NCBI RefSeq assembly: GCF_003046175.1
Contig: NZ_PZZM01000001.1
Location: 2,187,001-2,251,000 of the forward strand
DNA: 64,000 nucleotides
Direction of reading: 5' to 3'
Source of the DNA: Bosea sp. 124
Lineage (GTDB): Bacteria > Pseudomonadota > Alphaproteobacteria > Rhizobiales > Beijerinckiaceae
Part shown: positions 1 to 55,113 of the stretch, piece by piece
How positions within the stretch are numbered: position 1 is the stretch's first letter
Layout: the number at the start of each line of letters is the position of its first letter
Made by a program: the position numbers and the translations under genes
Notes under the pieces: model-generated
Told to the model about the DNA's origin: nothing
Database searches by the model: none
Seen by the model: the letters and a program-made list of their open reading frames with translations, nothing else

Positions 1-459
1 ATGGTTGGTCTTGAGCTTCCCTCGGTCGACCGCCCAGCTCAACATCGCGGAAATTGTCGTAAGGCGGTTGTCGCCCTCACGTTTCCCGGAAGCGCGCACG
101 ATCTCGTCGCGCCACTCCAGGAGGTCCTCCTTTACGCGCTGGTCGTCGAGAGCCTTGATGGGCATAGAGCCGAATCTCGGCTCCGCCTTCGTCAACATCC
201 GCTTATATTCCGCCTGGGTTGAGGCGGCGAGCTCGGCGAACTCCACCGAACCTGTGTAGGCACGGACGAGGTCGTTGAAGGTGCCTTTGGGGCGTTGGAT
301 CGTGGCCTGCTGAGCCTTTGTATAGGTAGCCAGAAACTGGGCTGTCCCAGGTTTGCCCTCCAGCTTTTCCCCGGTTGCGCGGTGGTAGTGGTACGTCCGG
401 AAGGTCCCGTCTGCGAGACGCTTACGGACGGTGTTAACGCCCTTCAGCTTCACGCGCAC
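1..459 (-). CDS. Tyrosine recombinase/phage-type integrase, N-terminal part
   Basis: The minus-strand frame is open from the window edge to a GTG at 459 (a second GTG is at 453). The 153 visible residues show an integrase N-terminal arm (VRVKLKGVNTVRKRLADGT, then RTYHYHRATGEKLEG) and a SAM-like core-binding region. The latter contains EYKRML, GSMPIKAL and an LTTISAMLSWAVDRG helix. The catalytic R-H-R-Y domain lies beyond the left edge and cannot be checked. The start overlaps the end of the upstream small gene by 26 bases, so the two are probably co-transcribed. There is no ATG start, so the GTG choice rests on where the similarity begins. It is the probable integrase of the island. Confidence 0.75.
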   Translation of the reverse strand, partial: MRVKLKGVNTVRKRLADGTFRTYHYHRATGEKLEGKPGTAQFLATYTKAQQATIQRPKGTFNDLVRAYTGSVEFAELAASTQAEYKRMLTKAEPRFGSMPIKALDDQRVKEDLLEWRDEIVRASGKREGDNRLTTISAMLSWAVDRGKLKTNH

Positions 460-652: not shown

Positions 653-1049
653 AACGACCGAGGCTCTTGACCGCGGGTTCTACCCGGTTACTGTTTTCCG
701 ACATCCCGAGAGCTCACAGAATGAGCATCGGCCGAAGGCCGATGCGGTTCCGTGCTCTCGAGTTCAGGCTAGGGTTTGCACATACCTAGCAAGGGAGGCG
801 TTACGCGGTTCCGGGCGCACTACCTGCGGGCGCACTCTGGCTGGCCCCTTCTCGCAATCCACTCACCACGCCCCGGCATGCCCTGCGGCTGACGGAAGCG
901 GAACCTTCGGCGGGCATTGCTGCGTGTTTCGACAGCTTAACCGCCGTTTGGAAGGCTGCTCTTCCTTCCTAACACTCCCGGTGCAACATCGGACGGGCCA
1001 TGATGTCCCGTCCGAATCGATGAGCTTCAGAACATAGCACGAACGCGAC
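653..1049. other. Non-coding stretch, no gene seen
   Basis: No credible coding frame was found on either strand. It includes the perfect hairpin at 725-745 and should contain the promoter of the small gene and integrase on the minus strand. Confidence 0.5.
725..745. repeat. Perfect 9-bp hairpin
   Basis: GCATCGGCC, loop GAA, GGCCGATGC. There is no T-run on either side, so it is not a standard intrinsic terminator. It could be an operator or a small repetitive palindrome. Confidence 0.5.
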
Positions 1050-1931
1050 TTATTTCGTAGCGGTAGTCGTGTTTATCAGGCGCTGTGCTTTGTAGCCCTG
1101 GTTGAGGGCAACCCAGCCCCAGGCCGGACGATCGGCTGCGGCATCGCGGACGACGAAGTCGTGGACGATGTGCTCGACGATGGTCAGCAGGCGCCCACCA
1201 TCGCGGCGCGGCTTGAAGACATAGAGTTCGTCGGCCCGGCTGACGCGTTCTGCCTCGCCGGTGTTGTAGCCGGTGAGGCGCATGGCTTCGCGCGGGTCGA
1301 GACCGAGGTCGGCGCAGTGCTTTCGGCCTGTAGGAGACGAGATCCAGCGGCCGAGGGCCGCCGGACTGAGTCGCTCATGAAGCTCCTTCTCGAAGGTGAT
1401 GAGCGAGAGCCCCTGCGGCAGGACGACGCGGATGACGCGCGGGCGGGCGTCGATCGGCGCGCCCGGGATCGGCTTGCGCGAGGGGTGGATGAGGACGAGG
1501 CGCCAGTTGTCGTAGCCCGGATCGCAGGCAAGGCCAGATTCAGCCTCGTACATGCCGGCATAGCGCTCGAGGTTGATGTCCTCGATCCGGGCGAGCGCGT
1601 TCTCGGACGCCGTCGCGGAGATCTTGAACAGCGGCAGCGCGAAGCGCCGCGCCAGGCCGTGGAGGCCCGTCGGCTGGTCCGGCGCTTTCAGCGTGTCACC
1701 GGAGCCGGCGACATAGACATAGGCGACGTGGCCGGGCTGGTAGGCCTCGGCGAACTCCGGGTCGAGGAAGGTATGTTCGGGGAGCGGCGCGAGATCCTTG
1801 CCGCCGATGGCGGGCCAGCGCGTCTCGACATAGTGCGTGACGGCGGCCGTGCTGCCCTCCTCGCGGATGCGGCGGGGCGTCGCCGGGATGGCGTGGCCAT
1901 CGCTGTTCGTCATGGTCATCATGATTTTCAT
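1050..1931 (-). CDS. Uncharacterised protein of the AAA+/IWPA cluster
   Basis: This 293-residue soluble protein has no signal peptide or membrane segment. The frame is open further upstream, but the ATG at 1931 (MKIMMTMT) is chosen because an AGGACGACAGGAC ribosome site sits just before it and longer starts would overlap the ATPase gene. Notable stretches are HVAYVYVAGSGDTLKAPD near residue 75 and, in the C-terminal half, ELYVFKPRRDGGRLLTIVEH. It is last in a minus-strand operon and starts 43 bases after the AAA+ gene ends, so it is a likely partner or client of that ATPase. I do not recognise the family. Confidence 0.7.
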   Translation of the reverse strand: MKIMMTMTNSDGHAIPATPRRIREEGSTAAVTHYVETRWPAIGGKDLAPLPEHTFLDPEFAEAYQPGHVAYVYVAGSGDTLKAPDQPTGLHGLARRFALPLFKISATASENALARIEDINLERYAGMYEAESGLACDPGYDNWRLVLIHPSRKPIPGAPIDARPRVIRVVLPQGLSLITFEKELHERLSPAALGRWISSPTGRKHCADLGLDPREAMRLTGYNTGEAERVSRADELYVFKPRRDGGRLLTIVEHIVHDFVVRDAAADRPAWGWVALNQGYKAQRLINTTTATK

Positions 1932-1974
1932 GTCCTGTCGTCCTGGGCTTCCCGGGGGCATTCCCGTTTTCGCC

Positions 1975-3201
1975 TCAATCCCGTTTCCTCTCTTCCTTCG
2001 CGACCGACTGGATGAACCCGATCGGCCTCCTTGCGGCCTCCTTGCTTGCCAGCAGGACCTGCTCGGCGCCGCGGATGTCCGCGGCGACGAGGTGCCGCCG
2101 CCCCGCTTCACAGGCAAGGCCCATGGCGATGGGCCACAGCCGCGACAGCATGCGCGGATTGTGGCGGACGCAGGCCTTAAACAGCGTCGTGTCTGGCTCA
2201 GCGAAGCTGCCGCCGACCCGCAAATTCGACTCCTGGAAGATGCTCAGCTGGATCGCGAGCATCTCGGCGTCCTTCAGCTCGACCTGGAAGACGATCAGCC
2301 GATCGACGATGCTGTCGGCCAGGGGATCGAGGCTGTTGGCGGTCGCAAACCAGAAGATGTGGTCGGCCCTGACCGCCAAGTCGACGAACTCGTCGACGAA
2401 GCGGGCAGCGTTCTCGCGCTCCAGAAGCGAGTGCAGGACATTCGTGGGGGTCTCGCTCGGGTTGATCGGCGAGGCCTTCTCGATCTCATCGATGACAATG
2501 AGCGGACAGGCATGGCTGCCCTCGATCAGAAGTTTTGCGACCTTGCCGGGGCCTGAGGACTTCCAGACTGGTGTCAGGCCTGAGAAGGCCGAGCCCCGAT
2601 CCGTCATCAGGTTCATGGCAATGACCTCCGAGGGGACGCCGAGCGCATCGGCGAGTTGCCGGGCGTAAAATGTCTTGCCGATTCCAGGTGCGCCGACCAC
2701 GACGGCGGGATCCAGCCGCAGCGGCGTTCCGGTCGCCGCGCTCAGGCCAGCCGCCCGAGCAATCCAGGACGTCACATCCCTGAACTGCGGGCAGATCGCA
2801 TCGAGACCGTTGATCCGCGCGATCATCGCCTCATCAGCGATAACGAGCTTGCGCCAAGGCCCGCGCTCGTCGACATGCATGCGCCTCCACAATCGGGCCT
2901 GACGCGACTGAGCTGCGTCCTCGTCGTTGCCCACCTCGGCAGGATCGCCGACGAAGCCATCGCCAAGACCGAGACGGCGGGCCAGGCGGTCGGCATCATA
3001 GATTTCGATCGCCGGGCCGGCAGGTACCAGTGCGCCGTCAGGCGATACCGCCGGCTCATCCAGCGGCTCTGGCGATGAGCTTTCGGGACGTTGCCCTTGG
3101 AGATGGGCAAGCAGGACTCGGTTCTTATGGTCGCGCCAGCTCTCGACGTGCTCGGCGTCGTCGAAGGCGGTTGGCGTCACGCTGCTCATGACCGGGCTCA
3201 C
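1975..3201 (-). CDS. AAA+ ATPase
   Basis: This 408-residue ATPase has a central AAA+ module with Walker A GAPGIGKT at about residues 170-177, Walker B LIVIDE at about 234-239, sensor-1 Asn in FATANS (about 289) and a candidate arginine finger in IVDRL (about 301). The first 160 residues are an acidic, poorly conserved N-terminal region. The arrangement recalls Lon/MoxR-type single-domain AAA+ proteins, but no protease or zinc motif is present. Its start overlaps the stop of the upstream gene by 4 bases (ATGA), so the two are translationally coupled. It probably remodels a target supplied by the neighbouring paralogs or by the 1050-1931 protein, which is inference. Confidence 0.85.
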   Translation of the reverse strand: MSPVMSSVTPTAFDDAEHVESWRDHKNRVLLAHLQGQRPESSSPEPLDEPAVSPDGALVPAGPAIEIYDADRLARRLGLGDGFVGDPAEVGNDEDAAQSRQARLWRRMHVDERGPWRKLVIADEAMIARINGLDAICPQFRDVTSWIARAAGLSAATGTPLRLDPAVVVGAPGIGKTFYARQLADALGVPSEVIAMNLMTDRGSAFSGLTPVWKSSGPGKVAKLLIEGSHACPLIVIDEIEKASPINPSETPTNVLHSLLERENAARFVDEFVDLAVRADHIFWFATANSLDPLADSIVDRLIVFQVELKDAEMLAIQLSIFQESNLRVGGSFAEPDTTLFKACVRHNPRMLSRLWPIAMGLACEAGRRHLVAADIRGAEQVLLASKEAARRPIGFIQSVAKEERKRD

Positions 3202-4136
3202 AGCTCAACGCCGCCGAGAACCGTCACGAAGGGCGGTCCCTGCCGGGCGATACGACGCCCGACGCCGATCGCGATCTCGACGAGCGCGCGCATGGAATCA
3301 GGATCGGATAAGCGCTCTGAGATGAGCCGTTCCACCCCCATCTTCACGACGAGGTCGTCGGAGCCGCGTGCTGGCCAAAGCCCGATACGGCAGAGCCGTG
3401 CATAGGCGAGGATGAGGGCGCCACGCCGCGCCGCATACCAGAACGGCCCCGGCTCCTCGGCGTCCGACCAGGCTTCGATCGCGGCGAAGAGCTGCCGTGT
3501 ACCATCAAGCAAGGCGCTCAGATCGGGAGGCGCTTTGAACCAGGTCTCCAGGGCATGAGCATCCTCGATGTGGTAGACGCCGGCACCCGTCTCGGTCTCA
3601 TCCCGCTCCGGCAGGACGGCGCCGCAAAAGCGACGCGCCGCCATCTCCATGCCGACAGGGACGCGCCCGCCTAATGTGAGCCGCATGCCGCCCGGGCGAT
3701 AGGTCGCTCGTAACGCCCGTTTCATGAGCGCTGGATCGTGGCGGCCGTCGCCACCGCCGTACTGCCGGGCCCGCTGCTGCGCGACCATAGCCTGAGCGAA
3801 GTCATCCTCGGGGGCGCTCGGCGGGACCAGCAGCATCGCGATCTCGCCGGCATGAGCGAGGATCGCAAGCGCATTGGCGGTATCGACCCGGTCCTCGAGC
3901 AATAAGGGATCGACCTCGGCTAGCGCGAGGAAGCGCTCGTATTGCTGCGCATGCAGCAGCGCCCGGCCACGCAGGTCGAGCAGCGACGGCAGCCGCTCCA
4001 GCAGCGCGGCATGGCGCTCCAGCGTGTCAGGCCTCTCCGGCAGGAGCATGTCGAGCGCAGCGAGCTCGTCGATGACGGGCATGCTGCCGGTCGTGAAGAC
4101 GAGGTCACGCAGGGACGGCGCGGTGTTGTCGGTCAT
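3198..4136 (-). CDS. IWPA-family paralog 1, function unknown
   Basis: This 312-residue, mainly helical protein has no membrane or signal segment. The C-terminal third carries RGALILAYARLCRIGLWPA, then an AK/VK-type helix and a DP motif. These align with the three other members of this tandem family (starts near 5199, 6327 and 7449). The middle shares VDTANALAILAHAG...LLVPP with paralog 2. AAGGAC lies about 10 bases upstream of the ATG. It overlaps the AAA+ gene. I know no characterised relative, and it may be an adaptor or structural subunit for the ATPase. Confidence 0.75.
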   Translation of the reverse strand: MTDNTAPSLRDLVFTTGSMPVIDELAALDMLLPERPDTLERHAALLERLPSLLDLRGRALLHAQQYERFLALAEVDPLLLEDRVDTANALAILAHAGEIAMLLVPPSAPEDDFAQAMVAQQRARQYGGGDGRHDPALMKRALRATYRPGGMRLTLGGRVPVGMEMAARRFCGAVLPERDETETGAGVYHIEDAHALETWFKAPPDLSALLDGTRQLFAAIEAWSDAEEPGPFWYAARRGALILAYARLCRIGLWPARGSDDLVVKMGVERLISERLSDPDSMRALVEIAIGVGRRIARQGPPFVTVLGGVEL

Positions 4137-4198
4137 GATCTGGATTGTCCTTGGGGTCGGCCTGTCCGCCCCTTCACGGTCCGCCCCGTCATGACGAA

Positions 4199-4221
4199 AG
4201 GCGCGCCATGTGGGCGCGCCT
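4199..4221 (-). terminator. GC-rich hairpin between paralogs 1 and 2
   Basis: Arms AGGCGCGCC and GGCGCGCCT, 9 bp, loop ATGTG. Read on the minus strand it is followed by TTTCGTC, a weak T-tract. It lies after the stop of paralog 2 and before the start of paralog 1, so it may attenuate read-through or protect the mRNA end. Confidence 0.5.
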
Positions 4222-4254
4222 CCTGATGGTTAGGTCCGGATCGGTGGGAAGCGG

Positions 4255-5199
4255 TCAGCCGGCCGCGTCGATGTTGAGGAACCGCGTCGACTGTCCGGCG
4301 ACCATTTCACCCTGCTCGAGCGCGATCTCGAAGAGCGCTCCGAGACGCTCGGGGTCGGTCGTTCGGGCTCGCACGAGATCGCGGGCGGCGAGCTTTGCCT
4401 CGACATCGCGCTGATCTCGGGCGGGCCAGAGCGCGACGCGCAGCAGGCGCGCGTAGCTGAGGATGATGGCGCCTTCGGTCGCATCCTCGACGACCCTCGC
4501 CGGCAGCCCGCTCGTGGCGAAGCCTTCGGTGTTGTGCAGCAGCTGGCAGGCAGCTTTGTACCAGCGCATGAGGTCCTGCCGCTTCGCGAAGAAGGCCTTC
4601 AGGCTGGCGGCGTGCTCGAGCGGATGAACGGCCGGCGTGCCACCAGGCGTGGCCGCGAGCGGCTTCGGCTGCAGGGCGCTCGCCCGGCGAGCCATTGTCT
4701 CGATCATCGTGCGGATGCCGGCGGCGTCGCTCGGCAGGTCCTGACCGCCGGGCTCGAGCTTCAGCGCGCTGGTCGCGCGGCGCGCCAGCGCGAGTTCCTC
4801 GCCATCGCCATGGCGCTTGGTATGGCGAAGCAGATGGAAGCCGAAGTTTCTGCCGGCCCAGGCGTCGTCGATGCTACGAGGCGGCAGAAGCAGGAGCGAG
4901 AGGTTCGCGGCGTTGACGAGCACCGTCAGCGCATTGGCGACGTCGATCCAGTCATCGACCAGCTCGGGCTCGCGGGCGAGACCCTTGATCAGCCGGCGAA
5001 CCTGGTCGGCATTGGCCTGCGCGCAGCCCCTGATCGGAAGCAGATCCGGAAGGGCGTTGCGCCAGTTGGCGAGCGTCTCGATCTCGGTCTCCGCCTGTCG
5101 GAACCGGGCCTCGAGCGCGAGAAGGTCGTCGGTGATCTGATGCTGCGTGGTGTCGAGGACGATGCTGCTGAGCAGGTCGCTGCGGTTGGTGGTGATCAT
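4255..5199 (-). CDS. IWPA-family paralog 2, function unknown
   Basis: This protein is 314 residues from the ATG at 5199 (MITTNRSDLL). A longer form from 5220 adds seven residues and also has a plausible AGGAG site. It matches paralog 1 in the middle (DVANALTVLV, LLLLPP) and at the C-terminus (EGAIILSYARLLRVALWPA, then DVEAKLAARDLV and TDPERLGALFEIA). The short N-terminal MTTN/MITTN start is shared with paralog 4. It is mostly helical and soluble. Function is unknown, and the similarity to its neighbours shows local duplication. Confidence 0.75.
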   Translation of the reverse strand: MITTNRSDLLSSIVLDTTQHQITDDLLALEARFRQAETEIETLANWRNALPDLLPIRGCAQANADQVRRLIKGLAREPELVDDWIDVANALTVLVNAANLSLLLLPPRSIDDAWAGRNFGFHLLRHTKRHGDGEELALARRATSALKLEPGGQDLPSDAAGIRTMIETMARRASALQPKPLAATPGGTPAVHPLEHAASLKAFFAKRQDLMRWYKAACQLLHNTEGFATSGLPARVVEDATEGAIILSYARLLRVALWPARDQRDVEAKLAARDLVRARTTDPERLGALFEIALEQGEMVAGQSTRFLNIDAAG

Positions 5200-5268
5200 G
5201 TTGCTTGGCCTTAATTCCATGGGGGTGATCTGCTCCTGGCAGTCGCTGTTCCTCAGTCTTCCCCAATC

Positions 5269-5300
5269 AAAAAGGGCAGCGCCGTTGCAGGCGCTGCCCT
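5269..5300 (-). terminator. Intrinsic terminator after paralog 3
   Basis: A 10-bp perfect stem (GGGCAGCGCC / GGCGCTGCCC), extended by one A-T pair, with a 6-base loop. On the minus strand it is followed directly by five T residues (complement of 5269-5273). This is a textbook rho-independent terminator inside what otherwise looks like one operon. Confidence 0.75.
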
Positions 5301-5328
5301 CGCTGTCATTTCATGCGCGGCTGGGCTG

Positions 5329-6327
5329 CTAAACCAGCTCGGACCAATCGAAGTTGAGCCGGTCACGAGCGTCCGCAGGCAAGGACTTGACCCATGCCGC
5401 GTCGGCCGTGACGTGGCGTACCGCCGCCTGCATGTGGATGGGATCGCCGATCTCCCCGCGCAGATTGATCAGCGCGACGATCTCCTGCTTCGTCGCCAGT
5501 GCGGCGCGGTTGTGAATCGGCCAGATCATGACCTGCGCCCCCGCCAGGTAGCCGGCGATGCGCGCGGCATCGGCTGCGACCATCAGCTCGCTCGCATTCT
5601 CCGGCCCGCGCTGGGCCAGCGCGATCAGCCGGTCGCAGGTCTCGAACATCTTGCGGGCCCGCACCAGGAGATGATCGAGATCGGGCGCGGCCTTCGCGAA
5701 GGCGACCCAGGCGGTGACCTGGGTATGAGCGTAGGCCGGCGGGCCTCCACGCAGTTCAAGCCCCTGCGTGAGGTCCCAGCGCTCGAGCGGCCAGATGGCC
5801 AGCCCGCGGCTGTCGCCCTGCGGCGGGGTGGGCGCCGCTGGCAGCATCAGCGACGGCACGCTGAAGGCCGCCCGCTTCCAGCGGATGCGGCGTGCCAGCG
5901 TCGCGTCGATCGTCGAGACGTAGGTCTTGTCGCGGCGATGGTGCAGTGCGCCGGTCTGCTCGGCGAGCGCCAGTTTGGCCTCGGCCCCCTCGAGGTCGTC
6001 GGCCGGCCAGATCGCGGTCAGCGCAACCAGGCTCAGGCTCATGATCTTGAGCCCGGCGCAGGCGAAGTCGTAGTCGCGGTCGCCGAGCTCTTTCGAGAGG
6101 CTGAGCCGGAACTCCTCGTTTGACAGGCTCTTGGCGTTGCGCGCCGCAGCCTTCAGGTCGATTGGCTGGCGGCGGAAGGCCACCAGCTCCGCGATGCTCG
6201 GATCTTCGCGACTGATGATCTCGACCGCCATCGCGATCGGGTCGCGCAGCGTCCGGTCGCCCGGCCCATCCACCGGGCCACCGGTGCGCGGGCTAAGCGA
6301 GCGCCCGCCCTGGTCATTCTTGCTCAT
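5329..6327 (-). CDS. IWPA-family paralog 3, function unknown
   Basis: This protein is 332 residues from the ATG at 6327 (MSKNDQGGRS). The frame is open 90 bases further upstream, but that stretch contains the intergenic hairpin at 6393-6418, so the shorter start is preferred. It is closest to paralog 4: both have a DP.(I/L)AEL(V/I)A..R N-terminal block, an (I/V)AIWP-type motif in the first half, and the C-terminal block GYLAGAQVMIWP...DPIHMQAAVRHV...W(V/I). The motif therefore occurs twice per protein, suggesting an internal repeat. Confidence 0.75.
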   Translation of the reverse strand: MSKNDQGGRSLSPRTGGPVDGPGDRTLRDPIAMAVEIISREDPSIAELVAFRRQPIDLKAAARNAKSLSNEEFRLSLSKELGDRDYDFACAGLKIMSLSLVALTAIWPADDLEGAEAKLALAEQTGALHHRRDKTYVSTIDATLARRIRWKRAAFSVPSLMLPAAPTPPQGDSRGLAIWPLERWDLTQGLELRGGPPAYAHTQVTAWVAFAKAAPDLDHLLVRARKMFETCDRLIALAQRGPENASELMVAADAARIAGYLAGAQVMIWPIHNRAALATKQEIVALINLRGEIGDPIHMQAAVRHVTADAAWVKSLPADARDRLNFDWSELV

Positions 6328-6392
6328 GCTAAACTCTTTTCTCGTGGGTCGCGACCATCCGGCCGCACTCTCCCTCCGGTCCTGAAATCGCA

Positions 6393-6418
6393 GATGGCGC
6401 CCCCACAGGGGCGCCATC
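6393..6418 (-). terminator. GC-rich hairpin between paralogs 3 and 4
   Basis: An 11-bp perfect stem (GATGGCGCCCC / GGGGCGCCATC) with loop CACA. It lies between the stop of paralog 4 and the start of paralog 3. There is no strong T-tract, so attenuation or RNA stabilisation is as likely as termination. Confidence 0.5.
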
Positions 6419-6447
6419 GACCTGTCATCTCCTCATTGCCTGTGTCG

Positions 6448-7449
6448 TCAGACAATCGGCATCCACGCCGGATCAAGCACGAGCGTGCCGCCGAACCGGA
6501 AGCGCTTGGCGATCCAGTTGGCTTCGCTGACGAGATGCCGGATCGCTGCCTGCTGATGCAGGGGATCGCATCGGCAAGCGCGATCGTTGATCAGCGCGAC
6601 CAACCTGAGTTTGGCCTGCGCATCGGCCGAGTGGAGCATCGCCGGCCAAATTGCCGCCCGCGCCGCGGCGAGATAGCCGAGAATGCGAGCGCCCTCCGCG
6701 GCCCGGCGCATCGGCGCGCTGTCGAGTTCGTTACGATTGGCGATCACCGTGAGGCGATCGGCGATGGTGATCATGGTGCTGAAGCGGTCGACCAGCGTGG
6801 TCAGGTCGGGATAGGCCTTGACGAAGGCGCCCCACCGGGCGATCGCGCGGCCATCCAGCGTCGCCGGGCCCCCGGTCAGCGGCACCGCGTCGACGAGGTC
6901 GAACCGCGACAGCGGCCAAGTCGCTAGATCCCGGTCAGAGGGCGCCGGCACAGCCGGGCCCGGAGGCACCACGAGCGCACCGACGTCGAAGGCCGCGCGG
7001 TGCAGCCTGATGCGAATTGCATCTTCGACCGAGAGCATCGGCGCGACCTCGAAGTCAGTGTCGCCATAGTGCGGCTGCGTCTCCCGGGCGAGCGCCCGCT
7101 TGGCGTCGGCGTCTTCGATCGTGTCGGTCGGCCAGATCGCGACGATGGCGGCGCCGCTCAAGCCGACGATCTGCAGTCCGACCTGCGCCATCTTATCCTC
7201 CTTGGTCTGCTCAAGGCCGTAGGGCAGTCGCCCCGCCTCGTCGTTGCACCGCTTCGCCTCGATCGCGAATCGCCGGAGGTCGGGTGCGTGCTCGCGCACC
7301 GCGATCAGCTCGGCGAGCGAGGGATCGTTGCCGATGCCACGGATCGCCTCGTCGAGCGGGTCGCGGATCGGTCCGAGCGGCCGGTCGCCCCCGCCCTCGT
7401 CATCGGTCGACATCGGCGTAATGCTCCGATCCTGGTCATTGGTCGTCAT
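6448..7449 (-). CDS. IWPA-family paralog 4, function unknown
   Basis: This protein is 333 residues from the ATG at 7449 (MTTNDQDRS), with AGGAAT about 10 bases upstream. A start at 7473 is also open. It has two copies of the family motif: GAAIVAIWPTDTIEDADAK in the first half and GARILGYLAAARAAIWPA, then AKLRLVALIND, DPLHQQAA and SEANWIAKR, at the C-terminus. It is the first of the tandem four and follows the exonuclease gene. No catalytic signature was recognised. Confidence 0.75.
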   Translation of the reverse strand: MTTNDQDRSITPMSTDDEGGGDRPLGPIRDPLDEAIRGIGNDPSLAELIAVREHAPDLRRFAIEAKRCNDEAGRLPYGLEQTKEDKMAQVGLQIVGLSGAAIVAIWPTDTIEDADAKRALARETQPHYGDTDFEVAPMLSVEDAIRIRLHRAAFDVGALVVPPGPAVPAPSDRDLATWPLSRFDLVDAVPLTGGPATLDGRAIARWGAFVKAYPDLTTLVDRFSTMITIADRLTVIANRNELDSAPMRRAAEGARILGYLAAARAAIWPAMLHSADAQAKLRLVALINDRACRCDPLHQQAAIRHLVSEANWIAKRFRFGGTLVLDPAWMPIV

Positions 7450-7514
7450 GGTCGGTTTATTCCTGTGGGTCACAGCCCCATCGGCTGCGCTTCACCTCCA
7501 TCTTTCCGAAATTG

Positions 7515-7542
7515 GAGAAGGCGCCGTCGCCGGCGCCTTCTC
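7515..7542 (-). terminator. GC-rich hairpin after exonuclease I gene
   Basis: An 11-bp perfect stem (GAGAAGGCGCC / GGCGCCTTCTC) with loop GTCGCC, between the exonuclease stop (7570) and the paralog 4 start (7449). There is no T-tract. It belongs to the same series as the hairpins at 4199, 5274 and 6393. Confidence 0.5.
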
Positions 7543-7569
7543 GTCGTCACCCGCCTTGGCCTGGTCGGT

Positions 7570-8976
7570 TCAGGCCGCGAGCCGGAAAAACCGGTTCTGC
7601 TCATTAAGCCAGCGCTCGATCGCGTCGAGATGCGCATGCCGCGCGGCATGATCGGCAGGAAGCGTCTGGCGCAGGGTTACGACCTCGCTGAGGGCCTTCG
7701 GCAGCGTCAGCCATGGCACATCGGCCTGCGTCGTCAGCCGCTCGCGAAGCCACGCCTGGCCTTTCTGCCAGCCTGCTGGTGACAGCGATTGCGGCGCCTC
7801 CAGCAGCGTCAGCCGGTTGGCGAAGGCTTTGAGCCGCTCGTCGCTGAACCCGGCCGCGATCGCAGCCCTGTCCGACCAGGGCGAGGCGTGCCAGCGCGCG
7901 CTGGCGCGGGCATCGTCGTTGGAGAGGAAGCCGCCCCCGTACAGCGTTGCCTCGGGATAGGGCGAGGGCTCGCGGTCAGCGAAGCGATTGGCCAGGGCCG
8001 TAGCGAGGTTCGACCCGAAGCTGGCATGCTCCCGGATACGGGCGGCGCGCTCGTTGTAGAGCGCGAGATCCCGCTGGTCAGGCAGCAGGGCGTGGCAGCC
8101 CTGCTCGTAGCTCACCAGGATCGGCTGGGCGTTGGTCTTGATCGTCCGGATCGGGCGAACCCCGCGCTGCGAGAACAGTGCGATGATCTCCTCGCTGGGC
8201 AACTCGAGATAGCTTGCCGGATCGACCGTCAGGTCGACCGCCGCCCACGAGGTCGCGACGGTCGGGTTTACCGTCACGCCGACGACCGGAGTCAGGCGGG
8301 AGGCGCCGCCGAGCAGCAGGACCTCGCCCCCGGCGAGCATCCGGTTCGGCAGGCCCTTGTCGGCCAGGCCAAGCAGGGTCGCCACGGTCACCGGTGCGAC
8401 CTCGCGCAGGTGCCGGAACAGGACCAGCGTCGCCCTGGTGTCGGCAAGCGCGTCATGGGCCTCGTCCTCCGACAAGCCGATGCCGTTGGCCCGGCAGATG
8501 TCGCCGAGTTTGAAGCTCGGTTTGCCCGTTGCCCCGAGCGGTACGGTCAATGCCGCCGGCTCCAGCATCGCCACCGCCCTGACCATGGTCAGCAGGTCGG
8601 CACGGCGATGGCCGTTCAGCTGCGTTGCATAGGGCGGCAGGAGATGGGTGAAGAAGGCATGCCGGAGCACCTCCTCGTCGAAGCGGATCGTATTGTAGCC
8701 GATCACGGTCGCGGGCGCCGAGGACGCCAACGCCTTCGCGATCACGTTCAGCATCTCGGTCAACGACAGCGGCGCCTGCTCGAGCTGTTCGGGCCGGACG
8801 CCGGTGGTCAGCAGCGCGCCCGGCGACGGCACGATATGGGCCGGCAGGCGGCAGCGCAGCGATATCTCGGCAAGCGGCACGAGATTCTCATCGGTATGGA
8901 TCAAAGCCGCCTGCAGCGGCACATTCCATTGCGGCTCGAGACCGCTGGTCTCGAGGTCGTAGATCACGAAGGACAT
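7570..8976 (-). CDS. sbcB: Exodeoxyribonuclease I (SbcB-type DnaQ-family 3'-5' exonuclease)
   Basis: This 468-residue protein digests single-stranded DNA 3' to 5' in the family. The DEDDh exonuclease core is visible: D7 and E9 in YDLETSG, the IGYNTIRFDEEVLRHAF motif around residue 94, and HDALADTRA near residue 183, supplying the last His and Asp. The C-terminal half matches the ExoI SH3-like/helical region. Length is near the usual 470-480. It is an extra, island-borne copy rather than a housekeeping context, lying directly upstream of the four IWPA paralogs. That suggests a role in the cluster's DNA-related task or in protecting the element. Confidence 0.88.
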   Translation of the reverse strand: MSFVIYDLETSGLEPQWNVPLQAALIHTDENLVPLAEISLRCRLPAHIVPSPGALLTTGVRPEQLEQAPLSLTEMLNVIAKALASSAPATVIGYNTIRFDEEVLRHAFFTHLLPPYATQLNGHRRADLLTMVRAVAMLEPAALTVPLGATGKPSFKLGDICRANGIGLSEDEAHDALADTRATLVLFRHLREVAPVTVATLLGLADKGLPNRMLAGGEVLLLGGASRLTPVVGVTVNPTVATSWAAVDLTVDPASYLELPSEEIIALFSQRGVRPIRTIKTNAQPILVSYEQGCHALLPDQRDLALYNERAARIREHASFGSNLATALANRFADREPSPYPEATLYGGGFLSNDDARASARWHASPWSDRAAIAAGFSDERLKAFANRLTLLEAPQSLSPAGWQKGQAWLRERLTTQADVPWLTLPKALSEVVTLRQTLPADHAARHAHLDAIERWLNEQNRFFRLAA

Positions 8977-8988
8977 GGTTCTCAGTCC

Positions 8989-9453
8989 TCAGTGCCGGCT
9001 CGGCGAGCCGGGTGACATCGGCACCTTGCTCAGATTGATGCCGAGCTCGCGCGCGTCCTGCTGCATCGCCGCCTCGACCATCACCGCGGTCCGCGTGCGC
9101 AGGATCTCGTCCTCGTCGAAGGCCATCGCCTCGTAGACCATGATCTTGCGCTCGAAGTGCTCCGTCGTGCGCGCCGGCGCCTCCGCCAGCATGAAGGCAT
9201 AGAAGCGCGCATGGACCCGCGCACCCTCCGCCATCTGCAGGGCAGTCAGACCACCATGCTCCGGAAACGACCGCTCCGGCTGTTGTTCGAGCAGCAGCGC
9301 GTGCGCCAGGGCCTCCTGCCAGAGCGAGAAAAACCGCTCCGGCTGATCGGTCGTCATCCCGTAACCGCGGTGGTAGCGCGACAGATGCTTAGCGCTTGGG
9401 CGCGCTTCATCGATGGCGGTGTTGCCGCCGTCCTTCGTTTTCTCCATACCCAT
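8989..9453 (-). CDS. Hypothetical protein upstream of exonuclease I
   Basis: This 154-residue protein starts at the ATG at 9453 (MGMEKTKDGG). The frame continues to 9528. It contains RYHRGYGMTTDQPERFF, a helical middle (LWQEALAHALLLEQQPE) and an ARVHARFYAFMLAE helix. No signal or membrane segment is seen. It ends 12 bases before the exonuclease start, so it is probably the first gene of the same minus-strand operon. Family not recognised. Confidence 0.65.
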   Translation of the reverse strand: MGMEKTKDGGNTAIDEARPSAKHLSRYHRGYGMTTDQPERFFSLWQEALAHALLLEQQPERSFPEHGGLTALQMAEGARVHARFYAFMLAEAPARTTEHFERKIMVYEAMAFDEDEILRTRTAVMVEAAMQQDARELGINLSKVPMSPGSPSRH

Positions 9454-9582
9454 AACCCGTTCCGGTTCGTCTCTCCCGGAACGGCTTGTCGGCTCAGGTT
9501 CGCGGGGGTTCCCAGGACTGGGTTCCACTTCAAGTCCTTCTATTCCGGCTTCGCTTCGCGTGAGGGCGCCAATGCACTATTC

Positions 9583-9626
9583 TGGCCCACAGCCGACATC
9601 TGGAATGTCCGCTGCCCGGCGACTTG
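9583..9626. repeat. Dispersed ~42-bp element, copy 1
   Basis: The stretch from GGCCCACAGC to CCCGGCGACTTG resembles 21562-21603, sharing GGCCC at one end and the core TGG(A/G)ATGTCCGCT. The core can fold on itself (GCGGAC.. / ..GTCCGC in copy 2). It could be a short dispersed palindromic repeat or the remnant of a lost gene end. Confidence 0.4.
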
Positions 9627-9661
9627 ACGCGGCCTACTGTCGGGCTACCTGTCGCGCTTCT

Positions 9662-10431
9662 CTACGCGCGCATCCATCCCCATTTGACGAAGTTGTGCTG
9701 GCCTTCAGCCGAGGCGAGAAACTCCACGAGCCGCTTGGCTTCCGGTCGCATCTGCCCACGCTTCGTCAGGGCTATGCCCGTGTCGCGATAGATCCGAAGG
9801 TCCGGCTCGACCTCGACGACGTCCGCGAGGGTGGGGTTGGCGACCTGCCAGATCGTCCAGATCAGCCAGGCGTCGAGCGAACTGTCCTCGACCCACGCCT
9901 TCCGGGCGTCGGCACTGTTCTTGGCGACCTTCGCGATATTGGAGCGAAACGCTTTGACGTCGGCGATGCGGCCGAGCCGGCCGGCGACATCCTCCCACAG
10001 GCCTTGCTGGCCCGCGCCATTTACGACGAGAATGCGGTGTCCGGGCTCGAGCAAGGCCTTCGCGCCGCCGATTGTTTTCGGATTGCCAGGCCGGACCAGT
10101 ATCGCGGAGGCGCGCAGGTAAAGCGGTTGGACGGTTGACGGATCGATGTCAGGCAGCGCCTCGATGAAGTCCGACATCATCACCTCGAAGCCACTGAAGA
10201 TTGTGTCGGCGTCTTTGGTCGCCTTGTCCTTCCAGGCTGGAAGCGGGCCGGCTTCAACCTGCACCTCAATGCCCTGCGCCCTGCCGAAGGTTGCGGCAGC
10301 CTCCTTCATCGCGGGCATCGGGCCGCCCGGCCCGTAGACGCGCAGGGGGCGGGCGCACTGGCGGGCGTCGTGAGCCCGGCGGCAAGCGCCGCGCCGAGAA
10401 TCCCGATACCGCGACGGCTGAGATGGGTCAT
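9662..10431 (-). pseudogene. AcfC-like extracellular solute-binding protein, frameshifted
   Basis: The gene begins at 10431 with MTHLSRRGIGILGAALAAGL, a signal peptide with a possible Tat RR. It then needs a one-base shift at the C/G homopolymer 10345-10349 to continue as LRVYGPGGPMPAMKEAA... to the stop at 9662. The mature part has the AcfC/sulfate-like binding-protein pattern: DTIFSGFEVMM, LYLRASAILVRPGNP, LVVNGAGQQGLWED and SSLDAWLIWTIWQ. With the shift repaired the protein is about 256 residues. It is either a recent pseudogene or a homopolymer sequencing error. Next to a YeiH-type transporter it may have bound a sulfur oxyanion or a sulfonate. Confidence 0.75.
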
Positions 10432-36623: not shown

Positions 36624-36902
36624 ATGTCGTCCCTTACCGAACAGACCAAATCCGTCAAAGAGTTTCCCCGCAAGGCAATCCGATCGCAGGAACTAGCCGA
36701 CCTTCTCTGCATCTCGCTGGCAGCGCTGAGCTCACAGCGCCGGCGCCGGACGGGCCCCCCTGTAGTGCTGCGCGAGGGGTGTCACCCTTACTATTCCCGT
36801 GACGAGGTGCTCGCGTGGCTGCTGGCACAAGAGCAGCGAAATGCCCAGCGGTCTGCCTCCAAAATCACTCCCGACCCTTCACTCGATTGCGCTGAGCAGT
36901 GA
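36624..36902 (+). CDS. Small helix-turn-helix DNA-binding protein
   Basis: 92 residues from the ATG at 36624 (MSSLTEQTKS). The HTH of excisionase/AlpA type is RSQELADLLCISLAALSSQR, followed by the GPPVVLREGCHPYYSRDEVL wing and AWLLAQEQRNA. It probably regulates mobilisation or excision. The last 38 bases overlap the 3' end of the convergent relaxase gene. Confidence 0.72.
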   Translation: MSSLTEQTKSVKEFPRKAIRSQELADLLCISLAALSSQRRRRTGPPVVLREGCHPYYSRDEVLAWLLAQEQRNAQRSASKITPDPSLDCAEQ

Positions 36903-38646
36903 CGAGCTGACGGCCAATTCGGGCCATCACCTTTGCTGCTTCGACTTCATTTGCACGTCGCAGTGTGCCCTCAGCAGCGAAAGCATCCGACGATCGGCCT
37001 CCGTTCCAAGATTGGATATGGCGACGTTGTCTGACACTGCCTGTCTGAGCAAGAGACGCCAGGCCGGCGTACACCTCGCCGCCCAGCACGCGCTGCAGGA
37101 CATCTTGACCAATCGGGGTCGGACGCCCCGCAAGAACATCCAGCGCCATCGCGGCGAGTGCGCGGTGGGTCTTCGGGACTACGGCGAAATCGAAGGCAGT
37201 CTGGCGCTCCTCACGCTGTGAGGACGCAGCCGGAGGGGGCTCCGCCGCCCCACCCTCGGCCGGTTGGGAATATTGAGGTCGATGCCGAGCATTTGCATGC
37301 ATGCCTACCAGTCGGTCCCTTCCTCGAGACAGATCAGCGGGACGGTGACGTTGGGCGACCAGTGCCTGGGCTTCGGCACGGCGAGCTTGACCGTACCCGC
37401 GCAGCGCACCTATCGCTACGATACCTGCCCCGAGCGCGACAGTCAGGCCCGCGCCCGTCAGAAGAACACCCGTTGCCGCCATTGCGAATGCGACCCGGCG
37501 CGCAGGGCGCGACTGCAGCAAGCGGGCTGCCTTGAATGCGCGGTTGATCCTGAGTTGGCGCACGCGTGCCTCCTCTCGGCGCATTGCCTGCGCCTCACGG
37601 CGCTGCGCTGCCTGTGATGAACGGCGGGAAGAGATTTCCTCATCGGCAGGCTTCCGCGATCGCCACATGCGGGAAAAGATGTCATTGAACTCGCCGTCGA
37701 TCGCGGTCTCTAACCGACCACGATCAATCTCGCGGATCAGGGCGCGGTCAGCCTGTTTCAATGTCCTGGCTGCACCCTCGACGCGGGCTTGCGAGATAAG
37801 CGGGGCATCGCGGCGCAGATCTTCCACTACGGACGGCTCCAGAGCCACGCGGCCGTCGGAGGCGATGGTGATGGAGCCAAGAAGAGGCAACGCCATACCA
37901 CTCCCGTCATGGACGGCCATGAGGGTTGCCTTCCTGGTGCCGATCGCGACGGAGAGGCCATATCGGGCGAGAGCCTGGCGGAGCGAGCCGAAGCGTATGG
38001 CCTCGCCGACGGCAGAGAGAAGCCGGCCACGAAATTCGCCCAAGGGCAGCTTTGCGCGGGCCGCCTGCTGGCGATCCGCCTCAGCGTTTCGATCACGTCG
38101 ACGGACAGGCTGATGGCCTTCCAGGATCTCAGCTTCGCGGATTTTACCTCGGGCTCGCAGATCGGCCGCATTCCGCTGGATGCGGGGACCAGGGGTTATC
38201 TTTTCACCGAATTGAATCTCGAGGCGGCGGCTGACCAACTCGTCGCGAGCATAGTTGTCCTTGGAGCTGAGGACACGTCCCGTAGCAGGATCAACGGCGC
38301 TGAAGAGCAGGTGAAAGTGCGGCGGCCTGTCACCTTTGTCATGCTCGATCAGCCGCATGGGATGATTTCGGGCAATGCCGTTTTCGCGCCTGATGCATGC
38401 GATGGCGCGTAAAAGCTGCCTTCGGTCGAGAGGGCGCGAGGGGGAGAGCTTGAAATGAGCCAACGTGATTTTCGCCCGTGAATGGGCGGCGGTCAGAGCT
38501 GATGAAAAAGCGAGGAACTGGCGTAGGTCGCCCGGGCAACCGCGGTCGAGATCTCGGTGCTCGACGACCCGCCGGTTATTCGACGTGCTCAGCAGGTGAT
38601 CTGCACGCCTAGGATCGTCTTTCACATAGCGAGACCGGCCGATCAC
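36865..38646 (-). CDS. MobA-type relaxase
   Basis: 593 residues. The relaxase domain is near the N-terminus: AKITLAHFKLSPSRPL, an ALTAAHSRA block and the metal-binding PPHFHLLFSAVDP (the HxH of motif III, about residue 109). The candidate Tyr nucleophile in the first 35 residues is Y7. A hydrophobic pair of helices near residue 400 (VAFAMAATGVLLTGAGLTVA) suggests membrane contact. It nicks oriT and pilots the strand in conjugation. Its start overlaps the MobC stop, and oriT is expected just upstream. Confidence 0.82.
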   Translation of the reverse strand: MIGRSRYVKDDPRRADHLLSTSNNRRVVEHRDLDRGCPGDLRQFLAFSSALTAAHSRAKITLAHFKLSPSRPLDRRQLLRAIACIRRENGIARNHPMRLIEHDKGDRPPHFHLLFSAVDPATGRVLSSKDNYARDELVSRRLEIQFGEKITPGPRIQRNAADLRARGKIREAEILEGHQPVRRRDRNAEADRQQAARAKLPLGEFRGRLLSAVGEAIRFGSLRQALARYGLSVAIGTRKATLMAVHDGSGMALPLLGSITIASDGRVALEPSVVEDLRRDAPLISQARVEGAARTLKQADRALIREIDRGRLETAIDGEFNDIFSRMWRSRKPADEEISSRRSSQAAQRREAQAMRREEARVRQLRINRAFKAARLLQSRPARRVAFAMAATGVLLTGAGLTVALGAGIVAIGALRGYGQARRAEAQALVAQRHRPADLSRGRDRLVGMHANARHRPQYSQPAEGGAAEPPPAASSQREERQTAFDFAVVPKTHRALAAMALDVLAGRPTPIGQDVLQRVLGGEVYAGLASLAQTGSVRQRRHIQSWNGGRSSDAFAAEGTLRRANEVEAAKVMARIGRQLVTAQRNRVKGRE

Positions 38647-39026
38647 GACTGGCCCCGCCCGAGCACGGCCATGATGGCAGTGATGGCGGTATGCAGGTCG
38701 AGCCTGATACGCTCAAGCTCGTCATGTCGCCACGGCAGCGGCTTGCCTTGGTTCAGATGCGCGGCAATCTGGTTGACATTGTTGCCGACCATGCCGAGTT
38801 GACCTAGGCCTTGCCGCAGCAATTCGGCATTCGCGACCCGGCGCCGGACCGTGGCGGTCCGGGCCATGAGGCCGATCTCCCGCTCGATGATGCGCCGCGC
38901 CATCTGGCCGGGTGTCAGTCCCATCGCGGCAGCGATCGCCACCAATTTGTCCGCCTCTTCCCTCGCTATGCGGAACACAAAGGGGCGGCTCTTCTCGTAC
39001 TTCTTGGCTTGCTTTTGGTCTGTCAT
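38643..39026 (-). CDS. MobC/TraJ-like relaxosome accessory protein
   Basis: 127 residues. N-terminal basic stretch KKYEKSRPFVFRIAREEADK, an RHH-like GLTPGQMARRIIEREIGL and the MobC signature RQGLGQLGMVGNNVNQIAAHLNQG. It helps the relaxase recognise oriT and melt it. It overlaps the relaxase by 4 bases. Confidence 0.85.
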   Translation of the reverse strand: MTDQKQAKKYEKSRPFVFRIAREEADKLVAIAAAMGLTPGQMARRIIEREIGLMARTATVRRRVANAELLRQGLGQLGMVGNNVNQIAAHLNQGKPLPWRHDELERIRLDLHTAITAIMAVLGRGQS

Positions 39027-46011: not shown

Positions 46012-47298
46012 ATGACACAGATAAAGCGAATCGGCTCCCGCATGCGCCCCAGCCAGAAAACCGAGTTCACCCGCCTGCATGAGCAGGCCGGCATGACGTT
46101 CGAGGAAGCCGTCGCCTTTCTGGCGGTGTCGGAGAGAACGGCACAGCGTTACCAGAGCGGCGAGCGCGAGCCGACCCGCTTGGGTCTGCGGATGCTGAAA
46201 CAGGCAGCTGCGAAGCGATGTGCGCCGATCGAGACCGGTCGGCCGGCATTCCGGTTCATCGACCTGTTCGCCGGCATCGGCGGGCTGCGCATGGGGTTCG
46301 AGACCATCGGCGGGCGCTGCGTGTTTACGTCCGAGTGGGATCTGCATTCGCAGAAAACTTACGCGATGAATTTCCCCGACAATCACCCGATCGCGGGCGA
46401 CATCCGGGAGTTCTCGAAAGATCCCGGCACCATTCCCGAGCACGACGTGCTGCTGGCGGGCTTTCCCTGTCAGCCGTTCTCGATTGCCGGCGTTTCCAAG
46501 AAAAACTCACTGGGCCGGCCGCACGGATTCCTGTGCGACACACAGGGCACCCTGTTCTTCGACACCGCCCAGATCATTGCCCACCACAAGCCGGCGGCGT
46601 TTCTCCTGGAGAACGTGAAGAACCTTGAGGGGCATGATGGTGGACGAACCTTCGCCACCATCATGAACGTCCTGAAAAACGAGCTGGGCTATCACGTTCA
46701 GCACCGGGTCATCAGTTCGGAGCCCTGGGTTCCCCAGAAGCGCCAGCGGGTGTTTATCGTCGGTTTCCGCGAGCCGAATGACTTTGATTTGAAGGCACTT
46801 AAGCTGCCGTTGGCCGAGAACGGGCCAAAGCTGGGCTCGATCCTGCTGCCGCCCGACCAGGTCGATCCGAAATACACCCTCACGCCCAAGCTCTGGCAGT
46901 ATCTCCAGGAATACAAGAAGAAGCACAATGCCGCCGGCAACGGCTTCGGCTTCAGCCTGTTCGGCCCGAATGATGTCTCCCGGACCCTCTCGGCGCGGTA
47001 TTACAAGGACGGGTCCGAGGTCCTGATCGACCAGCCCGGCCAGCGTCCCCGGCGCCTGACGCCCCAGGAGTGCGCCAGGCTGATGGGCTTCGAGCGCCCC
47101 GGCCAACCGTTCCGGATTCCGGTATCCGACACCCAGGCCTATCGCCAGTTCGGCAATGCGGTGGTGGTGCCGGTGGTGGAGTTCGTGGCCGCTGCCATGC
47201 GGCCCTACATCGAGGCCGCCCTGGCCAAACAGGCCGCGCGACCCGCACCCCAGGCCTATGTCCGTGAACGCGCGGAGCCGATCGCTGCTCATGGCTGA
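46012..47298 (+). CDS. DNA (cytosine-5) methyltransferase of a type II R-M system
   Basis: 428 residues. An N-terminal helix-turn-helix (TFEEAVAFLAVSERTAQRYQ, residues 29-48) may regulate its own gene. The C5-MTase motifs follow: I FIDLFAGIGGLRMGFE, IV AGFPCQPFS with catalytic Cys153, VI LLENVKNLEGH, VIII QKRQRVFIVGF and X QFGNAVVVPVVEF. With Vsr and an MvaI/BcnI-type nuclease it forms a complete system; by analogy with Dcm and MvaI it may recognise CCWGG or CCSGG. A start at M11 is also possible. Confidence 0.92.
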   Translation: MTQIKRIGSRMRPSQKTEFTRLHEQAGMTFEEAVAFLAVSERTAQRYQSGEREPTRLGLRMLKQAAAKRCAPIETGRPAFRFIDLFAGIGGLRMGFETIGGRCVFTSEWDLHSQKTYAMNFPDNHPIAGDIREFSKDPGTIPEHDVLLAGFPCQPFSIAGVSKKNSLGRPHGFLCDTQGTLFFDTAQIIAHHKPAAFLLENVKNLEGHDGGRTFATIMNVLKNELGYHVQHRVISSEPWVPQKRQRVFIVGFREPNDFDLKALKLPLAENGPKLGSILLPPDQVDPKYTLTPKLWQYLQEYKKKHNAAGNGFGFSLFGPNDVSRTLSARYYKDGSEVLIDQPGQRPRRLTPQECARLMGFERPGQPFRIPVSDTQAYRQFGNAVVVPVVEFVAAAMRPYIEAALAKQAARPAPQAYVRERAEPIAAHG

Positions 47299-47746
47299 CA
47301 CGGTCTCGCCCGAGGTTCGCAGCCGGATGATGTCCGGTATTCGCGGGCGTGACACCAAGCCGGAAATGATATTGCGGAAGGGGCTGCATGCGGCCGGCTT
47401 CCGGTTCCGTCTGCACGACCGGGCGTTGCCAGGCCGGCCGGATATGGTGTTCCCGCGCCGGCGGGCGGTTCTCTTTGCCCATGGCTGCTTCTGGCATGGG
47501 CACGACTGCCACCTGTTCCGCTGGCCGGCATCCCGCGATGAGTTCTGGCGGACGAAGATCCGCCGGAACCAAGAAGTCGACGAGCGTGCTACAGAGCACC
47601 TGGGCGCCGCCGGCTGGCGCCATGGCGTCGTCTGGGAGTGCGCTTTGAAGGGCAGGACCCGGCTGCCGCTCGCGGACGTGATCGAGGCCTGTGCCTCGTG
47701 GCTGCGCAGCGACGTGCCGACGCTGGAAATCCGGGGCCTCGCATGA
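47291..47746 (+). CDS. vsr: Very-short-patch repair endonuclease (Vsr)
   Basis: 151 residues from the ATG at 47291. It repairs T:G mismatches arising from 5-methylcytosine deamination. Catalytic Asp51 (GRPDMVFP), His64 (FAHGCF) and His69 (WHGHDCH) fall at exactly the E. coli Vsr positions. The N-terminal RSRMMSGIRGRDTKPEM is also canonical. It overlaps the methyltransferase by 8 bases and the endonuclease start by 4, so one transcript serves all three. Confidence 0.95.
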   Translation: MADTVSPEVRSRMMSGIRGRDTKPEMILRKGLHAAGFRFRLHDRALPGRPDMVFPRRRAVLFAHGCFWHGHDCHLFRWPASRDEFWRTKIRRNQEVDERATEHLGAAGWRHGVVWECALKGRTRLPLADVIEACASWLRSDVPTLEIRGLA

Positions 47747-49074: not shown

Positions 49075-49078
49075 CCGG

Positions 49079-50101: not shown

Positions 50102-50110
50102 GGGGGAAAC

Positions 50111-55063: not shown

Positions 55064-55113
55064 TTAGACTACGAATCTGAGGGTCAGAGGTTCGAATCCT
55101 TTCGGGCGCGCCA
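55064..55113 (+). other. Orphan 3' half of tRNA-Arg(ACG): island attachment scar
   Basis: Bases 55064-55080 form an anticodon stem-loop with stems TTAGA and TCTGA and loop CTACGAA, anticodon ACG. The T arm (AGAGG-TTCGAAT-CCTTT) and acceptor 3' strand CGGGCGC-G plus encoded CCA follow. There is no D arm or 5' half upstream. A tRNA-directed island leaves just such a 3' piece at its far end while the intact tRNA sits at the other end. Confidence 0.85.

Follow-up and report, generated by a model that had tools for sequence, protein, structure and literature searches.

An eight-gene cassette near the left edge of the window (the whole 64,000-nucleotide stretch analysed here, positions 2,187,001 to 2,251,000 of contig NZ_PZZM01000001.1 of Bosea sp. 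124) recurs with the same gene classes beside the integrases of many Bosea islands. Along the direction of transcription it encodes a small protein (g8), an exonuclease I homologue (ExoI), a tandem array of paralogs with an IWPA motif (p6 to p3), an AAA+ ATPase (AAA) and g1, probably a diverged GIY-YIG (T5orf172-like) protein (coordinates in Table 1). The reading we prefer, with a probability of roughly 0.42, is that these islands carry the cassette as a core module and that it forms a nucleic-acid-degrading complex, most likely one that excludes phages or competing mobile DNA. The islands would be a family of integrative, probably mobilisable, Bosea elements that hold the cassette at their integrase end. 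In such a complex, the AAA+ motor would load or remodel the assembly, ExoI would digest 3' ends of single-stranded DNA and g1 would nick or trim DNA in the manner of GIY-YIG enzymes. The helical paralogs would act as exchangeable scaffold or recognition subunits, while the structured RNA leader found before most paralog genes would probably set the level of each paralog in cis.

To describe conservation we used 41 loci: the window's own, 20 chosen around AAA matches and 20 around further g1 matches. Strong AAA matches on three short contigs (G031, G034 and G020) were left out, and for the identical pairs L061/L045, L062/L219 and L232/L164 only L045, L219 and L232 were counted. Forty of the loci come from the genus of the window (Bosea, judging by the named relatives) and one, L215, from its order. 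All five gene classes were present in 31 loci, in 30 of them on one strand. The other ten comprise four cut by the end of the stretch or contig (L218, L227, L229 and L231), four partial ones (L030, L031, L035 and L220) and two lone g1 relatives (L215 and L232). The original prediction had allowed that the cluster might not be conserved as a unit anywhere else, which these loci contradict, and its proximity to an integrase, confirmed in the window, holds across integrase types. Site-specific recombinases (22 tyrosine, 4 serine) flank the cassette at its g1 end in 26 of the 31 full loci, at distances of up to about 10 kb; a tRNA gene stands on that flank in 20 of the 31 (including Arg, Leu, Gln, Glu, Gly, Met and Ser), in 19 of them together with a recognised recombinase. 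Regarding the long integrases (identity of 54% or more across 435 residues or more), 11 of 12 had g1 on their own contig, no further than about 7 kb away, the exception being G018:C50; 3 of the remaining 36 integrase rows, of lower identity or fragmentary, had g1 nearby. The Bosea sp. 124 genome itself has 10 places matching PF00589, and 3 of these are within 6 kb of its three cassettes.

Within the genus, genome searches found g1 in 27 of 67 genomes; counting broken pieces, a single genome had as many as six matches. At the level of the order, g1 was found in 2 of 397 genomes, the window's own and one in which the match is distant (E 3.4e-28). The p profile matched 1 of 385 genomes in the class, again the own genome, for which six of a larger number of p genes are listed. 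These counts are lower bounds, since only part of the candidates was scored (six per genome in the order-wide g1 and class-wide p searches); the genome search also missed a T5orf172 protein of the own genome that the scan of island proteins finds. In searches of 5.8 billion proteins the named relatives were mostly Bosea, with a few metagenome-assembled genome records under other names. Besides, we observed two tandem cassettes in L218 (G455), the second with g1 in two pieces and cut by the stretch end. Plasmid pNBC550 of Bosea sp. NBC_00550 has a lone g1 relative (L164:11806-12669), placed two genes downstream of repC.

In the window, the eight minus-strand open reading frames (ORFs) that had been predicted between 1050 and 9453 were all recovered at those coordinates, with a third-position GC content of coding type. 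Alignments place the probable starts of p6, p5 and p4 further inward, at 7449, 6327 and 5199: the additional N-terminal residues of the ORFs would be translated leader sequence, and close p6 homologs mostly measure about 333 residues. The proposal of a cluster of no known make-up also stands: six of the eight proteins gave nothing above cut-off in Pfam, no NCBIfam match and no PADLOC match, and their best PHROG matches, those of the p proteins included, were no better than E 0.08. PADLOC 2.0 did not recognise the cassette as one system; it matched ExoI strongly and AAA weakly (E 0.02 or worse), and left the other six proteins unmatched at E up to 1. Of the suggestion of an uncharacterised cluster with a possible role in defence, anti-defence or element maintenance, the uncharacterised and conserved part is borne out. 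The description as one minus-strand unit is right as to the shared strand and needs care as to the single unit, because a strong hairpin occupies each spacer before p6, p5, p4 and p3.

ExoI retains the DEDDh residues D7, E9, D100, H174 and D179 in 17 of 17 cassette members and matches PF08411 with 67.2 bits (cut-off 27). It shares with ExoI/SbcB and RTasSbcB these residues and the C-terminal ExoI domain, and RTasSbcB is its best PADLOC match (2.1e-83). It differs from them in falling below the NCBIfam cut-off for the housekeeping equivalog (PRK11779, 188.9 against 260 bits), in forming a separate clade and in having no reverse transcriptase in its cassette. A housekeeping ExoI was therefore rejected as a full description, and so was a defence-associated reverse transcriptase (DRT) system, since no reverse transcriptase was found among the eight cassette proteins (a scan of these proteins, not of the whole island). 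The original prediction had also considered that every protein might belong to a characterised housekeeping family; the six unmatched proteins and the ExoI score speak otherwise. In the ATPase, Walker A, Walker B, N289, R301 and R350 are kept in 18 of 18 members. Its top profile matches in the PDB are to Lon AAA modules, but with a length of 408 residues only the AAA part matches: the Lon models cover residues 167-308 and no Pfam protease family was matched, so plain Lon was rejected as a full description.

The assignment of g1 as a diverged GIY-YIG (T5orf172-like) protein is probable, judging by its motifs. A KIGxT...R core is recognisable, with K103, T107 and R115 in 40 of 40 members and the G replaced by S or A, and the g1 profile aligned to the KIG..R of T5orf172 with P 6.4e-4 (0 of 20 shuffles as good). 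Candidate glutamates are E235 (40 of 40) and position 181 (E in 20, D in 20). The Y, KxxxT, R and E positions of g1 line up by eye with those of T5orf172/MUG113 GIY-YIG proteins and Slx1, the sole family in the VIA-align list for g1. It departs from T5orf172 in the E/D split at position 181 and in the Pfam result: PF10544 (T5orf172) was listed for 0 of 40 g1 members at E up to 10, with HMMER filters dropping most matches above 0.1.

The C-terminal block proposed for the four tandem genes is real by alignment (GARILGY..AIWPA in p6, GAIILSY..ALWPA in p4, GALILAY..GLWPA in p3), with p5 diverging (AARIAGY..MIWPI). The idea of four unrelated genes was rejected, as p3 to p6 form one family with an internal duplication (E 8e-8 in p6). 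The predicted structure of p6 (AF2) is all helical with a mean confidence (pLDDT) of 82.7, and we describe the paralogs as helical proteins without a significant family match. g8 may, on weak grounds, be a short, distant member of the same family. A phage origin was not supported, as viral contigs gave no p6 relative in a single-protein scan, which reaches close relatives only.

Most paralog genes are preceded by a structured leader. Every window spacer before p6, p5, p4 and p3 contains an 11-12 bp hairpin, and in the full loci a hairpin follows the upstream stop at 24 of 27 ExoI-p, 60 of 68 p-p and 5 of 5 g1-p junctions, at 14 of 27 p-AAA, 2 of 4 ExoI-AAA and 2 of 3 p-g1 junctions, and at none of the 31 g8-ExoI, 28 AAA-g1 and 3 AAA-p junctions. 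The window spacers between g8 and ExoI and between AAA and g1 measure 12 and about 43 nt. For spacers leading into p genes the count is 89 of 100, compared with 1.6% of 1000 dinucleotide shuffles and 5.6% of 339 coding windows. The leader sits a median of 28 nt after the upstream stop, just before the p start, a position that suggests control in cis. The hairpin between p5 and p4 (5272-5301, minus strand) is strong and terminator-like, with a T-rich tail, and may split transcription of the operon.

Because the hairpin search selects for pairing, our claim of covariation rests on an RNAalifold consensus and not on the 89 of 100. A MAFFT alignment of all 84 leaders gave almost no consensus structure, and for this reason 25 leaders were picked by eye (alignment A8). 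In RNAalifold, A8 yielded a consensus of two hairpins with 16 pairs, of which 7 show compensatory changes. Paired cells amounted to 98.3%; shuffles gave 91.3%, and none of 500 was as high. The covariation score, 0.361, also exceeded that of the shuffles (0.225, 0 of 500) and the values obtained when slid (0.122 or less); pair types were no more numerous than in shuffles (19 vs 18.0, 150 of 500). A search of the window and 32 of the loci with a covariance model, R1, gave 113 matches, 101 sense and 12 antisense, in which the 25 seed leaders are included. A p gene is next downstream within 600 nt in 93 of the 101 sense matches, and none of the 113 fell outside a cassette, with 392 kb searched there; in the window, R1 found the four spacers and one antisense overlap. 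The 658 kb of 49 other chosen loci gave no match, and Rfam (4227 models) gave 0 matches in window positions 900-10400 at E up to 1. Some leaders carry a 13-base tail motif, which had 9 sense matches in cassettes (two counted twice) and 0 outside. The two-hairpin RNA element is a new finding of the present analysis.

The cassette genes are under purifying selection, with ratios of non-synonymous to synonymous substitution (dN/dS) of 0.14-0.35 in the computed pairs (at least 74% amino-acid identity), and they have been reassorted between elements. When pairwise identities of g1, AAA and ExoI were compared over 30 loci, Mantel correlations between genes were 0.02-0.14, as against 0.69-0.87 between halves of one gene; the allele histories of g8 and ExoI correlate with r 0.59 over 29 loci. 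One Bosea contig illustrates the exchange (TND4EK4, L219): relative to the window, its p4-p6 DNA is 85-98% identical, mostly 92-98%, with 56-73% on the ExoI/g8 side and 56% or less on the AAA/g1 side.

The proposed function draws on the company kept by the relatives of ExoI. A 121-member ExoI tree places the cassette members in a single clade with support 1.0 (33 leaves, including two duplicates), nested in a mostly alphaproteobacterial group (support 0.93). We viewed the neighbours of 12 members of this group and scanned ten neighbouring proteins: 5 of the 12 ExoIs lie near DRT1a, BREX, AbiE or type I restriction enzyme genes. The neighbours recognised were BrxA and BrxB (L077), BrxA (L236), AbiEi and AbiEii (L070), a PbeA-like protein (L235) and, about 5 kb away, a type I restriction enzyme (L086). 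In L071 (10001-15103) an ExoI relative stands directly before a DRT1a reverse transcriptase. Operons of a helix-turn-helix (HTH) protein, ImmA/IrrE and ExoI occur in four alphaproteobacterial plasmid records (L163, L254, L255 and L256) and, in a separate count, in 7 of 85 loci. ThiF genes are close by in three of the four plasmid records, in two cases along with multiubiquitin genes; in L163 and L255 the operon is divergent from the multiubiquitin and ThiF genes. In a fifth plasmid record, from Bosea, the ExoI relative is not in such an operon. According to passages in PMC12483538, the DNA product of DRT9 is degraded by host ExoI, which is required for its tolerance, and passages in PMC13174585 repeat the statement; on this account, ExoI-type nucleases can belong to immunity circuits. 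The DRT9 case and the defence neighbours together lead us to favour exclusion of foreign DNA, a role in defence that we infer from ExoI's relatives.

Several observations weigh against the reading as a fixed, recombinase-linked exclusion module with a covarying leader. Five full loci (L037, L216, L217, L221 and L234) have no recognised recombinase, all but L221 having g1 at most 4.3 kb from a contig end; several recombinases score under the Pfam cut-off (e.g. L045, L225 and L233), and the L029 integrase contains a stop. The g1-AAA and AAA-ExoI correlations, both r 0.14, are small yet nominally significant (p 0.04 and 0.03), and the low dN/dS belongs here as well. The match of g1 to T5orf172 spans 21 columns only, and that between the p and g8 profiles has an hhalign probability of 10.7%, although 0 of 20 column shuffles reach it. 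As to the leader, besides the bias of the hairpin search, the leaders of A8 were hand-picked (25 of 84) and all reappear in the R1 results. The antisense strand of cassettes also has strict hairpins with a T-run, at 0.77 per 10 kb (vs 1.93 sense and 0.37 outside), and the 13-base tail motif is absent from the cassettes of the own genome.

The main rival to exclusion is that the cassette processes the island's own DNA, during excision, in rolling-circle or mobilisation intermediates, or in maintenance after transfer. Such a role would explain the position at the integrase side, and it agrees with the linkage to unrelated recombinase types, with the 11 of 12 long integrases that have g1 nearby, with the island's own relaxase and MobC-like genes and with MobA/MobL relaxases near g8 in L028, L042 and L044. 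We regard it as possible but rather unlikely: g1 is unmatched in 40 of the 67 genomes of the genus, ExoI relatives often adjoin defence genes, and swapping of paralog arrays is not required of a core life-cycle module. One could also argue that the integrase flank is a hot spot for cargo and the cassette an ordinary cargo operon, for instance for stress or DNA repair, with nothing but regulation between its genes. Hairpins before most p genes would then tune stoichiometry, and other cargo is indeed present on the island. Cargo hot spots, however, vary in content, while the gene classes of the cassette stay the same next to different recombinases, with the tRNA genes and recombinases counted above on that side; we give this explanation very little weight. 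Phage satellites likewise have defence hot spots at their integrase ends. These resemble the cassette in placing anti-phage genes beside an integrase and differ in their variable content, the Bosea cassette being constant with different integrases.

Two further proposals give the leader a larger part. The two-hairpin RNA could act in trans as partner of the p proteins, making the cassette an RNA-protein complex, as the covarying element, its 93 of 101 sense matches before a p gene and its absence outside cassettes and from the 658 kb of other loci would allow. Its place after the upstream stop and before the p start is nevertheless what one would expect of a leader, processing site or terminator in cis, a terminator-like T-rich tail closes some copies, and no RNA-binding family was recognised in the p proteins; we consider this improbable. 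Harder still to credit is an RNA-protein conflict system in which each paralog is made with, and binds, its own two-hairpin RNA, so that exchanged paralog-RNA units retarget the AAA+/ExoI/GIY-YIG-like complex.

The island of the window lies in a genome assembled as a single 5.47-Mb contig. The 48-bp direct repeat at tRNA-Arg and attR delimits an island of about 55.7 kb, with the cassette at the integrase/tRNA-Arg end; the 19-base core of the repeat has two occurrences in the genome. The integrase ORF starts in the window at 459 and adjoins the tRNA gene. We did not find the empty site, as the right flank was never beside the tRNA in the 30 loci compared. The island resembles integrative mobilisable elements in its attachment at a tRNA, integrase, direct repeat, MobC-like gene and relaxase. 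Among the matches of the mobilisation genes, PF03432 is exactly at its cut-off (24.6 bits; relaxase), and PF21983 and PF05713 are below theirs. The island differs from such elements in a conserved integrase-side cassette that no system in the tested libraries matches. The cargo is known from 11 scanned proteins, which further include an AAA_25 protein and a resolvase. Towards the far end lie defence genes: a C5 methylase is followed by an MvaI/BcnI-type nuclease and then by SIR2 and HerA (46012-51865, plus strand). Near the right end (53558-54739, plus strand) lies a T5orf172 protein (E 4.8e-12), and a GIY-YIG-type gene would therefore stand at both island ends, if g1 is one. In a second island of the same genome, ABC-3C type genes (CTD10, DUF2326) lie between integrase and cassette (L028:1392-4302).

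Table 1. Features of the cassette and its island, in window coordinates unless prefixed L006 (window coordinate = L006 coordinate minus 10000).
Feature	Position	Strand	Remarks
tRNA-Arg(ACG)	L006:9290-9366		beside integrase, left of window
Tyrosine integrase, N-terminal part	1..459	-	PF00589 E 5.9e-17; full ORF L006:9386-10459, continues left of window
g1	1050..1931	-	293 aa; start ~1931; probably diverged GIY-YIG (T5orf172-like)
AAA+ ATPase	1975..3201	-	408 aa; Lon-like AAA domain, PF00004 E 5.1e-10
p3, IWPA-family paralog	3198..4136	-	stop overlaps AAA start by 4 nt
RNA leader before p3	4127..4233	-	R1 30.8 bits, E 9.2e-8; hairpin
p4, IWPA-family paralog	4255..5199	-	ORF from 5220; start near 5199 likely
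RNA leader before p4	5199..5311	-	R1 32.5 bits, E 2.3e-8
p5, IWPA-family paralog	5329..6327	-	two repeat units; ORF from 6417; start MSKNDQ likely
RNA leader before p5	6318..6428	-	R1 93.8 bits, E 4.4e-30; seed member
p6, IWPA-family paralog	6448..7449	-	two repeat units; ORF from 7473
RNA leader before p6	7440..7550	-	R1 85.3 bits, E 4.6e-27; seed member
ExoI (SbcB-like DEDDh exonuclease)	7570..8976	-	468 aa; PF00929 and PF08411
g8, small protein	8989..9453	-	first gene
Mobilisation genes	36865..39026	-	MobA/VirD2-type relaxase 36865-38646; NikA/MobC-like protein 38643-39026
attR	55066..55113	+	48-bp exact repeat of tRNA-Arg 3' half; right island end

We rate the whole cassette as new in composition: the p, g8 and g1 families, their combination and the RNA element are in no library used, while ExoI, AAA and probably the GIY-YIG part are of known kinds. 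If the preferred reading of an exclusion complex is true, a whole class of islands carries a fixed, modular DNA-acting complex, largely made of protein families and an RNA element outside those libraries. The cassette would then offer a ready test of how mobile elements exclude one another or control their own DNA, given that the same cassette can be compared across integrases and attachment sites and that natural swaps of paralog blocks are ready variants. The RNA leader would provide a handle on the expression of several related subunits from one gene array.

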